Positions 34,069-38,062 of a stretch of 38,062 nucleotides of DNA are shown here, in pieces. The number at the start of each line of letters is the position of its first letter. Position 1 is the first letter of the stretch. The stretch is from Zoogloea sp. (lineage in GTDB: Bacteria > Pseudomonadota > Gammaproteobacteria > Burkholderiales > Rhodocyclaceae): positions 1 to 38,062 of the forward strand of contig NZ_JAFLDT010000039.1 in the NCBI RefSeq assembly GCF_017302315.1, given 5' to 3'. A program made the translations under genes and the position numbers. Under the pieces are notes generated by a model. The model worked only from the letters and a program-made list of their open reading frames with translations. It ran no database searches and was not told the DNA's origin.

Positions 34069-34758
34069 TCAGTCGCGATCACCGCCGCCGAAGGCCATCA
34101 CCAGGTTGAGCAGGCCGACGAAGATGTTGTACACATCCAGATAGACCGCCAGGGTGGCCGTCACGTAGTTGGTTTCACCGCCCCGCACCACATTGCTGAT
34201 GTCGTACAGCAGATAGCCCGAGAACAGCATTACCACTGCAGCGGAGATCACAAGGTGCAGCACCGGCATCTGCAGGAAGATGTTGGCCACGCTAGCCAGC
34301 AGGATCACCACCAGGCCGACCATCAGGAACTTGCCCATGTTGGTGAAATCGCGCTTGGACACGCTGGCAATGCTCGCCATCGTGGCAAATACGGCACCTG
34401 TACCGCCAGCGGCCAGGGCGATCATGGAGCCGCCGTTGGAGAAGCCCAGGGCGACCTGCAGGATGCGCGACAGCATCAGGCCCATGAAGAAGGTGAAGCC
34501 CAGCAGCAATGCGACGCCGAGGCCGTTGTTCTTGTTCTTCTCGATGCCGTAGAAGAACGCGAACGAAATGCCCAGGAACAGCGCGAAGGCGATGAAAGGG
34601 CTACCCGCCAGGAACGAGAACTGCATTTGCACGCCGAGCAGTGCACCGGCAACGGTCGGCACCATCGAGAGCGCGAGCAGCATGTAGGTGTTGCGCAGCA
34701 CGCGGTTTGCGCCTTGCGACAAAACCTGCGTTTGCTGACCGTAAGTGTCGAGTTGCAT
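34069..34758 (-). CDS. Bax inhibitor-1/YccA family membrane protein
   Basis: A 229-residue protein with seven hydrophobic segments, the BI-1/TMBIM fold of YccA/YbhL. In E. coli YccA is a substrate and modulator of the FtsH protease; others may be pH-dependent Ca2+ channels. Seen: QTQVLSQGANRVLRNTYMLLALSM at the N-terminus and a C-terminal SGYLLYDISNVVRGGETNYVTATLAVYLDVYNIFVGLL carrying the conserved aspartates. The ATG at 34758 has CTGGAGGAAATCC upstream; an open upstream extension to 34845 is not needed. Converges with rlmD. Confidence 0.92.
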   Translation of the reverse strand: MQLDTYGQQTQVLSQGANRVLRNTYMLLALSMVPTVAGALLGVQMQFSFLAGSPFIAFALFLGISFAFFYGIEKNKNNGLGVALLLGFTFFMGLMLSRILQVALGFSNGGSMIALAAGGTGAVFATMASIASVSKRDFTNMGKFLMVGLVVILLASVANIFLQMPVLHLVISAAVVMLFSGYLLYDISNVVRGGETNYVTATLAVYLDVYNIFVGLLNLVMAFGGGDRD

Positions 34759-34844
34759 GGATTTCCTCCAGATTGATGTAAAGCAGATGACCTGCACTGC
34801 TTGAGAGTAACGGACGCCCCTGAAAGTTTCAACCGCGCGGCCCA

Positions 34845-34853
34845 TGCTAGAAT
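34845..34853 (+). promoter_or_regulatory. Extended -10 promoter of tRNA-Ser
   Basis: TGCTAGAAT (34845-34853) is an extended -10 placed 10 bases before the mature 5' end of the tRNA. A GC-rich run follows, as is common for stringently controlled stable-RNA promoters. No clear -35. Confidence 0.5.
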
Positions 34854-34863
34854 GCGCGCCCGC

Positions 34864-34951
34864 GGAGGTGTGGCAGAGTGGTCGATTGCACCGGTCTTGA
34901 AAACCGGCAACGGGAAACCGTTCGTGAGTTCGAATCTCACCGCCTCCGCCA
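34864..34951 (+). tRNA. tRNA-Ser (anticodon UGA)
   Basis: An 88-base class II tRNA. Acceptor GGAGGTG pairs with CGCCTCC (one G-U), discriminator G, encoded CCA at 34949-34951. The anticodon stem CCGGT/ACCGG presents TGA at 34898-34900. The long variable arm (CAACGGGAAACCGTTC region) and the T-arm GTGAG-TTCGAAT-CTCAC are typical of tRNA-Ser. Confidence 0.97.
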
Positions 34952-34958
34952 GGTATCC

Positions 34959-34990
34959 AGAAAAAACGCTCCTTCCGGAGCGTTTTTTCT
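34959..34990. terminator. Terminator after tRNA-Ser
   Basis: AGAAAAAACGCTCC (34959-34972) pairs with GGAGCGTTTTTTCT (34977-34990), loop TTCC: 14 perfect pairs and a T-run. Confidence 0.93.
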
Positions 34991-35119
34991 TTGCGCGGTG
35001 TGCCCGGCAGCTCCGTGCCACCCGCGAAACACTTTCGCCGTCTGAATCGTCATCTTTCCGCCAGGAAACGAACTTACAGCCCGTGAAACTGAGTTTCAGC
35101 GCCTGAAACTGCGTTGCGC

Positions 35120-35164
35120 GGGCCGGAAACATCGTTTCAGCGCTTGAAACTGTCTTTCCGGCCC
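35120..35164. repeat. Nested inverted repeat within the GAAAC array
   Basis: GGGCCGGAAA (35120-35129) pairs with TTTCCGGCCC (35155-35164). Inside, after four-base internal loops, GTTTCA (35134-35139) pairs with TGAAAC (35145-35150) around GCGCT. Confidence 0.8.
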
Positions 35165-35166
35165 GA

Positions 35167-35199
35167 GAAACCTCGATTCACGGCGTGAATCGAGGTTTC
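35167..35199. repeat. Perfect 15-bp hairpin within the GAAAC array
   Basis: GAAACCTCGATTCAC (35167-35181) and GTGAATCGAGGTTTC (35185-35199) form 15 uninterrupted pairs around loop GGC. There is no T-run, so it is not a standard terminator. Confidence 0.85.
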
Positions 35200-35219
35200 A
35201 GGCGTTGAGACGCTTACCT

Positions 35220-35519
35220 GCCGCCAGTCAACCCGGGTTCCGGCCGATCACGCCTTCGACCGGCGAGCTCGGGCTGCCCTGGTATACACTGTTTCCGGCC
35301 CAAATTTGACCACCGGGGCCAAGGTGGGGGCGGGGGCACCAAACCTAGTTGCCAACCTCTGATCCACCAGAAGCCGTCCTGCGTCGATTTTGGCCCGGTC
35401 TCTGACCTGGCCAGCAGTTCCGCACGCGGCAGGGTCGAACCCACCACGAGACGTTTAAGCGACTAACACTGTCCAATCATCTTGGCGTCAAGGCCTGACG
35501 TCGCACTAGGGGATCGTGA
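35220..35519 (+). other. Intergenic stretch without a recognisable gene; possible promoter at 35280-35288
   Basis: About 300 bases between the repeat array and the methyltransferase gene. No gene is supported; a 77-codon open frame on the minus strand is Pro/Trp/Arg-rich with no family look. TGGTATACA (35280-35288) fits an extended -10 and would give a leader of about 225 bases for the downstream gene. A short dyad GGGT-CGA-ACCC is at 35432-35442. No copy of the tRNA-Ser 3' end and no integrase were found here. Confidence 0.4.
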
Positions 35520-35957
35520 ATGCCTCGTAAGCCATCCAAGCCCGCCAAAGCCCCCAAGGCCTCCAAGTCGTCGACCAGAGTCGAACCTTACGAGCACTCC
35601 ACGCCCAAGGCCCCGTTGCGGCCTGATGTGGGCACGCAGGCGCAGTTCAAGAAGAAGCTGCCGCCCAAGACCTATCGCTACGATAGCAGCTTGAACCCGG
35701 CATTGGACTGGGACAACAACCCGGTGAGGACCATCGGTGAGGCCTTAATCAAGAAGATTCAGGATGCGAAGTCCATTGATGAGGCGAAGGCCGCCGCTGC
35801 CGAGCTAAGGCGGATGAGCAAACCATTTCTTAACTGGGCGGGGAAGGCCGAGCGGCTCAGTTTTGAAGTTCCTACGCTTCCCCTGTTCATTCACGAACGG
35901 CTTTCCACCCAAGCAATTTTGGAGACTTTAAAGAGCCACCGCCGAGACAAACAATAA
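35520..35957 (+). CDS. N-terminal fragment of a type III-like DNA methyltransferase, ended by an in-frame TAA
   Basis: A 145-residue frame: Lys/Pro/Ala-rich start (about 1-50), then RYDSSLNPALDWDNNP and a C-terminal part with FLNWAGKAERLSF and LFIHERLSTQAILETL (about 121-136). From family memory, this WAGK...HERLSTQAIL module is the N-terminal region of single-chain methyltransferases of about 900 residues that accompany restriction helicases. Here TAA at 35955-35957 stops it, and the methyltransferase sequence resumes in the same frame immediately after. The ATG at 35520 has AGGGGAT upstream. It could be a pseudogene fragment, a split subunit, or subject to read-through. Base composition is less GC-rich than the core genes. 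Confidence 0.65.
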   Translation: MPRKPSKPAKAPKASKSSTRVEPYEHSTPKAPLRPDVGTQAQFKKKLPPKTYRYDSSLNPALDWDNNPVRTIGEALIKKIQDAKSIDEAKAAAAELRRMSKPFLNWAGKAERLSFEVPTLPLFIHERLSTQAILETLKSHRRDKQ

Positions 35958-35996
35958 AGTTTTTTTGATGACCTTTTTAAGGACCCAAGGCACAGC

Positions 35997-38062
35997 GTGA
36001 CCGAGCAAGTCTTGCGGGCCTATGAGCATCAAGATGATTGGGTGAATAGGCTGGTCATGGGCGATAGCCTTGTCGTGCTCAACAGCCTGCTCCACTACGA
36101 AAACATGGGTGGCAAAGTCCAGATGATCTATATGGACCCGCCTTATGGGGTCAAGTTTGGCAGCAATTTCCAACCTTTCGTGCGGAAGCGTGAAGTGGGT
36201 CACGGTGTTGATGAAGAGATGACCCGCGAACCAGAAATGGTGCAGGCTTATCGTGATACCTGGGAGTTGGGGCTTCACTCCTATTTGGCATATCTACGGG
36301 ATCGCTTGGTCCTGTGCCGCGAACTCTTATCTTCGAGCGGCAGCGTCTTTGTTCAGATCGGAGAAGAAAATCTTCATCATGTCCGAGAACTAATGGACGA
36401 GGTTCTTGGGAATGAAAACTATGTCTCGACCATTTCGGTCAAGAAGACAGCGACACCCCGAAGCCTGCTGGACTCAAGCGTCTTCTATGTAATTTGGTAT
36501 GCGAAAGATGCTGAGCACGTGAAATACAACCCGCTATTCGTCCCGAAGCCATGTGATGAGTGGGCGCGTGATACGCCCGGCGGTTCGTGGGGAGTCGAAA
36601 TCAACGGAAAGCGTCGTCCGCTTACACCGGAGGAGAAGAACAATACCAATCTCTTGCCTGCGGGGGCGAAGGTCTATTGCTTGTCCAAATTGACCTCGGC
36701 CGGAGCTGGGGCCAATGACTGGGCATTTGAAATTGACGGCAAGCAGTTTAAGGCTGGTCCGAATGCTCATTGGAAGACAACGCAGGAGGGCATGCAGACG
36801 CTCATCAAGGCCGGACGCATTGAGATGCGAGACCGACCCTGGTTTGTGCGGTTTCATTCTGACTACGTTGTCCAACGACTTACCAATATCTGGGAAGACA
36901 CGGCTGGAAAGGCGGCCGAGACGGTCTATGTGGTTCAAACCCAGCCAGATGTTGTTCAGCGCTGTATCCTGATGACGACTGATCCAGGCGATTTGGTCAT
37001 TGATCCCACCTGTGGAAGCGGCACAACAGCACTCGCAGCGGAGTTGTGGGGGCGGCGCTGGATTACCTGTGACGTTAGCCGAGTCCCACTTGCGTTGGCA
37101 CGGCAGAGACTCCTGACTGCCACTTACCCCTTTCACGAGCTCAAACAGCCCGACAGCGGGCCAGCGGGCGGTTTTGTCTACAAAAGAAAGAAGAACTCCA
37201 AGGGCGAAGATGTGGGCGGAATTATTCCTCACATCACGCTCGGCTCTATTGCTAACAACGAACCAGAAGAAGAAGTGGTTATTGTCGATAGGCCGGAAAC
37301 ACAGTCAGGGGTTATGCGAGTCACCGGACCATTTACATTTGAGGCTACAATCCCGACGGCACTTGACCCGGTTTCTGACCAGGACAAACCTTCGGCAGAC
37401 GACGTTTCTGCCTACGGCAGCTACGTCGACAGGATGATTGAGGTCTTGAAAAAGAGCCCCGTGTTGCAGTTGCCCGGAAAAAAGTCGGTGACCTTCAAAA
37501 CGATCCGGGTTCCGGCTAAGACGTTATCACTTTCCGCAGAAGCGACTGTAGTGAATGGAAAGGAACGACCCTGTGCGTTGGTGTTTGGACCGGAAAATGG
37601 AGCGGTTAGTGAGCGGATGGTCCACGAAGCAGCACGGGAAGCAGCCGCCAAGAAGTATGAGCACCTTTATGTGATTGCTTTTGCAATTCAGCCCAATGCG
37701 CGAGAACTGGTTGAGCACTGTGACGAGGTAATGGGAATCCCGGCAACCTATGTCCAGGCAACGCCTGACCTTTTGATGGGCGATCTGCTAAAGAATATGA
37801 GGTCGAGCCAGATATTTAGCGTCTGTGGACTTCCGGAAATCTCGGTGAAGAAGGCTAAGGGCAGCGAGGTCACAGTGAAGTTGCTTGGCTTGGACGTGTT
37901 CGATCCGGTTTCGATGGAAACCCACCATCGATCAGGTGGCGATGTTCCGGCCTGGTTCTTGGATTCGGACTACAACGGCTTGAGCTTTCATGTCACACAG
38001 GCCTTCTTCCCCCGCACACAGGCTTGGGACAACTTGAAAAAGGCCTTGAAGGCAGACTTCGA
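35997..38062 (+). CDS. Site-specific DNA methyltransferase (beta-class, type III-like), partial at 3' end
   Basis: An open frame of about 688 codons running off the window. Counted from GTG 35997, motif IV DPPYG (Asp47) comes before motif I, DPTCGSGTTALAAE (about 336-349), the order of beta-class N6-adenine or N4-cytosine methyltransferases. Between them is a large target-recognition region. After about residue 390 comes an acidic linker and a C-terminal domain (VFGPENGAVSERMVHEAAREAAAKKYEHLYVIAFAI in pieces) I recall in methyltransferases paired with DEAD-type restriction helicases. GTG at 35997 is the first plausible start after the TAA, with AAGG nearby; the frame is open from 35958. The partner nuclease or helicase would lie downstream. 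Confidence 0.8.
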   Translation, partial: MTEQVLRAYEHQDDWVNRLVMGDSLVVLNSLLHYENMGGKVQMIYMDPPYGVKFGSNFQPFVRKREVGHGVDEEMTREPEMVQAYRDTWELGLHSYLAYLRDRLVLCRELLSSSGSVFVQIGEENLHHVRELMDEVLGNENYVSTISVKKTATPRSLLDSSVFYVIWYAKDAEHVKYNPLFVPKPCDEWARDTPGGSWGVEINGKRRPLTPEEKNNTNLLPAGAKVYCLSKLTSAGAGANDWAFEIDGKQFKAGPNAHWKTTQEGMQTLIKAGRIEMRDRPWFVRFHSDYVVQRLTNIWEDTAGKAAETVYVVQTQPDVVQRCILMTTDPGDLVIDPTCGSGTTALAAELWGRRWITCDVSRVPLALARQRLLTATYPFHELKQPDSGPAGGFVYKRKKNSKGEDVGGIIPHITLGSIANNEPEEEVVIVDRPETQSGVMRVTGPFTFEATIPTALDPVSDQDKPSADDVSAYGSYVDRMIEVLKKSPVLQLPGKKSVTFKTIRVPAKTLSLSAEATVVNGKERPCALVFGPENGAVSERMVHEAAREAAAKKYEHLYVIAFAIQPNARELVEHCDEVMGIPATYVQATPDLLMGDLLKNMRSSQIFSVCGLPEISVKKAKGSEVTVKLLGLDVFDPVSMETHHRSGGDVPAWFLDSDYNGLSFHVTQAFFPRTQAWDNLKKALKADF

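Follow-up and report, generated by a model that had tools for sequence, protein, structure and literature searches.

REP and BIME elements that go with REP-associated tyrosine transposases (RAYT) carry a GTAG/GGAG foot ahead of the palindrome. Plasmid iterons and partition centromeres consist of direct repeats at about two helical turns with a rep or par gene adjacent, CRISPR arrays consist of nearly identical repeats separated by unique spacers of uniform length, and MITEs possess terminal inverted repeats and a target-site duplication. In the parts of the literature available to us, the copy number of REP elements is given as more than 100 per genome (PMC2817692), and scattered non-coding satellite families are reported in Leptospira (PMC6749651). 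According to the available part of PMC6379681, the gyrase sites of E. coli (for which PMC12393610, also available in part, is a further source) show a 130-bp motif in which G/C content varies with a 10-bp phase; they lie downstream of transcribed units and are over-represented in BIME-2. What draws gyrase to the DNA behind transcription units seems, according to the same part, not to be hard-wired in sequence. Among the open-licence PMC articles listed, no description of a phased array element such as the one analysed here was found in the titles and the opening lines of the abstracts.

The window (the whole stretch of Zoogloea sp. DNA that was analysed, 38,062 nucleotides) contains at 35026–35217 ten GAAAC-like boxes, which start at 35026, 35044, 35065, 35085, 35105, 35126, 35146, 35167, 35187 and 35207. 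An earlier note on this DNA had counted ten units at intervals of 18, 21, 20, 20, 21, 20, 21, 20 and 20 bp, and the box starts agree with this; its description of the boxes as GAAAC or a one-base variant is also correct (seven GAAAC, two GAATC, one GAGAC). The TTTC that it placed nine bases after the G was found there exactly in four units and as a one-base variant (TTAC, TTGC or ATTC) in three, but TTTC stands at +7 and +11 in the first two units and is absent from the tenth. Our analysis refined the dyad to GAAAC-N3-GTTTC, with a second dyad, GTTTC-N7-GAAAC, spanning the 7-nt linkers; the half-sites alternate in orientation and lie 8 and 12 bp apart. The unit is GAAWC-N3-GWTTC followed by a GC-rich linker of 7 or 8 nt (flavour A), and the mean spacing is 20.4 bp. 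Tandem Repeats Finder picked up the array piecewise only, with periods of 20 and 41.

A phased GAAWC-N3-GWTTC path scored 68 on this array, which none of 2000 dinucleotide shuffles of 35010–35225 reached (mean 5.6, maximum 20), and the maximum in 643 other 216-bp segments of the same contig was 12; the pattern scored was taken from the array itself, which makes both comparisons generous. The array is real and beyond chance.

Table 1. Positions of the array, its off-pattern parts and the neighbouring features in the window.
Feature	Position	Strand	Remark
Phased dyad array, flavour A, ten boxes	35024..35215	.	GAAWC-N3-GWTTC with 7- or 8-nt GC-rich linker
Unit u1, 21 bp	35044..35064	.	Second box ATCTT off consensus, 8-nt linker; same spacing position in four other arrays
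Unit u4, 21 bp	35105..35125	.	Second box GTTGC, 8-nt linker
Unit u6, 21 bp	35146..35166	.	Second box CTTTC (one-base variant), 8-nt linker
Near-perfect palindrome, 33 bp	35167..35199	.	Built from units u7 and u8
tRNA-Ser(TGA)	34864..34951	+	Neighbour, outside the array element
Intrinsic-terminator-like hairpin with T run	34960..34992	+	Between tRNA-Ser and array
thiG 3′ end, left beside island	35228..35285	-	49 bp match G017 at 94%
N6/N4 DNA methylase gene, in island	35997..38062	+	Runs off contig

The array starts 72 bp past the tRNA-Ser gene, beyond the terminator-like hairpin and just ahead of the thiG 3′ end. About 58 bp of thiG remain beside it, and then comes other DNA with the DNA-methylase gene; this DNA (35286–38062, running off the contig) is probably a restriction-modification island. 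Blastn searches of both collections for a plasmid or phage origin gave no match at E 1. In G017 the same array stands directly ahead of thiG without the island, with 12 differences in 376 bp relative to the window, which indicates that the array predates the island. The island border, moreover, lies about 70 bp beyond the array. The proposal that the array is an attachment or recombination site of the island was therefore rejected. Nor is the array tied to tRNA-Ser, as five other arrays with the same boxes sit at other loci. The 420 bp downstream of tRNA-Ser were viewed in 17 of the 21 further genomes of the genus, and by eye none of the 17 shows such an array; the next genes often differ there too.

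Between G000 and G017, units u1–u8 differ at 2 of 163 sites, and the tRNA with its hairpin and the preceding gap at 1 of 233. In two neighbouring genes the difference is 11 and 22%. A 52-bp patch just before the array (34992–35043), ending at unit u1, shows 17% divergence from G017 between these near-identical stretches. The block of tRNA and array was probably exchanged. Since the tRNA part is equally low in divergence, the similarity of the two arrays was dropped as a sign of selection.

The array is of more interest for its relatives than for its location. Two other species of the genus carry arrays with its boxes, at five further loci in all. The search used a sequence-only model built from six copies, and among the best 150 candidates scored per genome there were at least one flavour A array in G000, at least two in G017 and at least four in G004, which is not the high copy number of REP elements. 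The model matched 4 of 23 genomes of the genus at E 0.01, the matches in G009 being weak and of another type, and with stricter filters 2 of 199 genomes of a family sample at E 0.001 (G000 and G004). A strict four-box pattern was present in 4 of 199 family genomes (the array's own, G004, G005 and G174, the last apparently isolated) and in 1 of 369 genomes of a class sample (its own). A collection-wide pattern scan used a gap of 5–7, and does not settle the spread of the family; among the matches listed, one each from 80 loci, nearly all belong to a family of palindromes with an 18-bp step, hosted among these matches by cyanobacteria, Chloroflexi and Thiotrichaceae. The same scan gave five viral contigs, and L197 and L198 look like coding repeats on reading.

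A period scan of 400 kb each gave 8 top segments in G000, at least 14 in G004 and 9 in G007. By eye, no further intergenic array was seen among them in G000 or G007, in a scan where known A arrays score about 0.46–0.49 against a background 99.9% point of 0.42–0.49, so that weaker arrays could escape it. One new candidate appeared in G004 (contig C53, at about 4.3 kb): L340:4300–4600 is a degenerate array-like stretch of GATTGGTTTCTGTTCAC units. A run of roughly 100 G in G007 (C7, L369:2301) is probably an assembly artefact.

Six distinct flavour A arrays were compared, with the G017 copy at the tRNA-Ser locus left out. Five of them have a common spacing of 20, 21, 20, 20, 21, 20, 21 and 20 bp in one orientation, the array G004:C48 stopping after seven of these intervals. 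The 21-bp units (u1, u4 and u6) are at the same places in all five, and in each array the second box departs from GWTTC, sometimes by a single base, in two or all three of them; other units are sometimes off too. The GTTGC second box of unit u4 recurs at the same unit in G004:C53, and unit u6 is more divergent in G017:C17 and G004:C48. The sixth array, G004:C107, departs from the common spacing and was excluded from the indel count. Ten pairwise comparisons of the five arrays (144–164 bp) gave 49–76 substitutions each and no indels, whereas five comparisons of control intergenic DNA, not all independent, gave 294 substitutions and 19 indels, or about one indel per 15 substitutions. The contrast is suggestive, although the five arrays were partly picked for agreeing spacing, so that it is not a clean test. 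To the same extent it counts against a neutral or selfish minisatellite, in which slippage and unit exchange would have spread the units and the 20–21 bp period would be inherited rather than selected. Such an origin is quite possible, though we hold it at short of even odds, and the sporadic presence of the arrays and the lack of a common neighbour gene favour it.

Arrays of similar layout with other boxes are found in G005, G009, G017 and G018. Flavour B (GGATTACTGATTCC) is present in G005, G009 and G018, flavours C (GACAAC-N3-GATGTC) and D (GGCAATGTTTCAT) in G009 and G018, and flavour E (GAGAAACATTGCTC) in G005. One genome may carry several box types (A and CGAAC in G017; B, C and D in G009; B, E and H in G005), and one locus may carry different ones. 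The gap between mgtE and hemL has flavour A in G004 and flavour G (CGAAC-N3-GTTCG) in G017, and in 9 of the 11 species compared it is 21–93 bp long without an array. The gap between two FlgEFG-family genes (the second flgG, the first called flgF from its position) has D in G018 and G009 and H (CATCGC-N-GCGATG) in G005, and in six of nine species compared no array was seen there by eye. The array-free hemL and flg sites are too different in content to define element ends of the MITE kind.

Across 17 arrays, 161 of 168 intervals are 20 or 21 bp, a count partly biased by a path finder that favours these values. B arrays are nearly strictly 21 bp, and flavour B can also be read as inverted heptamers (3 × 7 = 21). 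As read from the consensus, A, C, G and H have clear dyad symmetry, and B, D and E only a partial one. Five of 199 family genomes matched the pattern R2; in four of them, which belong to three other genera, the matches are 7-mer arrays of a different layout. Heptamer arrays of the GATCCCT, GGGTTAC and GCATCCG types were observed in three other genera of the family (L380, L381, L382, L383 and L384, around position 1500). The R2 match G001:C20 was set aside as a probable coding heptad repeat on reading, and at G003:C55 no array was seen.

Differing boxes at one locus are in keeping with a minisatellite, while a 20–21 bp period recurring with several different boxes is not. The same diversity bears on a second alternative, in which the array would offer sites to a dimeric DNA-binding protein with sequence specificity, as in a partition site, an iteron or a silencer, and the cognate proteins would co-change with the boxes. 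Dyad half-sites, two-turn spacing and conserved boxes suit such a protein; several box types per genome and differing boxes at one locus do not, nor do the ordinary flanking genes with matches, and we regard this explanation as unlikely. A single fixed binding-site family is the less likely given these differences per genome and locus.

The earlier note had also proposed that half-sites are kept while other positions drift, and this was observed in three comparisons. In four A arrays (C48 and C107 left out) the identity is 83% in the first box and 72% in the second, 39% in N3 and 52% in the linker. In the orthologous B arrays of G005 and G009, whose ten units align without a gap, 34 of 140 box positions and 33 of 70 linker positions changed (p=0.001), and in the D arrays of G018 and G009, compared over nine units, 2 of 117 and 10 of 72 (p=0.0013). 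Change is faster in the D array than in the DNA on either side (11/180 versus 30/2871 substitutions, one flank having a 38-base gap), and in this one close pair aligned the substitutions look like unit exchange with an unchanged unit number. The apparent exchange speaks for a minisatellite, in which template switching between the inverted arms would keep the boxes alike while loops and linkers drift; homogenisation of inverted-repeat arms by template switching has been reported in the available parts of PMC8604942 and PMC7202029. Slippage, however, should homogenise the linkers as well.

The genes near arrays that gave matches are thiG, mgtE, hemL, pckG, a fumarylacetoacetate-hydrolase-family gene, modD, an ECF sigma factor, a TPR protein, GST, pirin, Rieske, flgG, a FlgEFG-family gene, DUF2322, an NTP transferase and bipA, with a VanZ-like gene just below the cut-off; these ORFs were selected with a GC-by-position heuristic, and some lie farther off than the next gene. 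They are ordinary genes unrelated to one another, with no rep or par gene among them, and lend no support to the iteron or partition role raised earlier. Seven ORFs searched near arrays or in the island gave no match. Genes converge on the array at the tRNA-Ser/thiG, mgtE/hemL, pckG, VanZ-like/DUF2322, NTP-transferase/bipA and GST loci, and the hemL array abuts the stop codon. Sites away from gene ends also exist: one array lies between the two FlgEFG-family genes, L219 between divergent genes, and L074 and L075 between co-oriented genes.

A REP-associated tyrosine transposase (NF047646) is encoded at L075:6671–7108, flanked by GTAG-type repeats. Next to the hemL array of G004 lies a GTAG-type repeat that is present many times in G004 and G002 and in some copies in G021. 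By eye, no GTAG/GGAG foot was found in the arrays themselves. An origin from RAYT and REP was considered, as the transposase is about 2.6 kb from the G017:C17 array, and was rejected, as its flanks carry GTAG-type repeats and not the array boxes.

The array could also be a transcribed multi-hairpin RNA acting as a terminator, mRNA stabiliser or sRNA sponge. Free folding is strong, with z −8.6 against dinucleotide shuffles for the plus strand of 34952–35225, the tRNA terminator included, and z −3.8 for the minus strand of 35010–35225. For both strands of G017:C17, folding is somewhat stronger than in permutations that keep the boxes (z −2.0 to −2.3), and arrays are often at 3′ ends. With the boxes held fixed, however, the other 8 of 10 array-strand tests (C107 left out), those of the window array among them, showed no folding surplus. 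No Rfam family except tRNA exceeded the gathering score in 34500–35700, and the tRNA already has a terminator-like hairpin of its own. The structured RNA named as an option in the earlier note is thus very unlikely, and the folding tests favour a reading at the DNA level.

The helical phasing of the boxes is supported. All six flavour A arrays have a G/C power of 11.8–16.8 at periods of 10.20–10.30 bp (13.0 for the array of the window), and the maximum among 39,760 background segments from a 400-kb sample of G000 was 11.67; the arrays were slid by 1 bp and this G000-only background more coarsely, by 10 bp, and C48 (11.8) and C17 (11.9) barely exceed it. In the window's contig, each of the eight segments with the highest power overlaps the array. 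A 21-bp G/C signal, but not a 10-bp one, is present in flavours B, D and E (power 2.4–4.1, reached by 6–27% of background segments); C305 is high (10.8), and G, H and C133 are weak (5.0–5.5).

We therefore favour, with a probability of roughly 0.4, a platform at the DNA level for wrapping or for a nucleoprotein complex, with a role like that of BIME-2; the neutral minisatellite is a close rival. The element would be scattered intergenic DNA in which some 5–15 short dyads follow one another at two helical turns, and it most likely works as double-stranded DNA. With its AT-rich boxes and GC-rich linkers in phase, it would let a protein wrap it or line up on one helix face, and it may act close to the ends of genes, where supercoils accumulate through transcription. 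The leading candidate binder for flavour A, judging from composition, is gyrase or a nucleoid protein; we infer the protein binding, the protein and any effect on topology. The A-type G/C phasing above background, like that of the 130-bp gyrase motif, points to wrapping, as do the convergent neighbours at six loci with the hemL array abutting a stop codon, and the zero indels of the five A arrays together with box-preferring conservation.

Against wrapping stand the missing 10-bp phasing of B, D and E and the weak values of G, H and C133, the two A arrays barely above a G000-only, coarser-step background, and the arrays away from gene ends, to which is added the E. coli finding that downstream attraction seems not to be hard-wired. 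Most species are array-free at the mgtE-hemL gap and the flg pair, the D array is faster than its flanks, G004:C107 breaks the spacing, and the low divergence between the G000 and G017 arrays is common to the tRNA block; these count in the same direction. Gyrase, besides, does not need dyads.

A broader reading, in which the element class is defined by helical period and dyad layout rather than by letters and each array has its own box, is doubtful but conceivable. Different boxes in different species at one locus mean that the boxes must shift in concert across an array, and two-turn spacing that persists despite box change implies that what a protein or some process recognises is the helical phase and symmetry and not the sequence. 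If spacing rather than sequence is kept, the arrays would be natural test pieces for topology enzymes and nucleoid proteins that read helical phase, and many would escape repeat finders based on sequence similarity. If the arrays are neutral, they would show box-preferring concerted evolution in bacterial DNA, perhaps via template switching.

Among known systems, a CRISPR array does not fit the 13-bp degenerate dyads with 7–8 nt linkers. Iterons and centromeres have the same direct-repeat spacing of two turns, but the present arrays occur in several unlinked copies, with no rep or par gene among the flanking genes with matches. The AGAAACCCGGTTTCT palindromes of cyanobacteria, Chloroflexi and Thiotrichaceae resemble flavour A in having paired GAAAC-N3-GTTTC dyads, and differ in an 18-bp step, a near-constant centre and occurrence mostly as pairs instead of phased arrays. 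Like minisatellites, VNTRs and satellites, the arrays are tandem, head-to-tail and intergenic, with apparent unit exchange between close species; unlike them, they have degenerate linkers, box-preferring conservation and a two-turn period kept with differing boxes. Strong gyrase sites and flavour A have in common a marked G/C variation with a 10-bp phase across about 130 bp, found in 6 of 6 A arrays (two barely) and not in B, D or E; the likeness is one of composition. Unlike BIME-2 and REP clusters, the arrays have no GTAG-type foot, low copy number and boxes that vary between arrays; besides them, the genus carries GTAG-type repeats as a family of their own, along with a REP-associated transposase. 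In being intergenic, with alternating palindromic units and unrelated flanking genes, the arrays are nevertheless like the BIME-2 and REP clusters of enterobacteria and pseudomonads, and BIME-2 of E. coli is linked to gyrase in the available part of PMC6379681.
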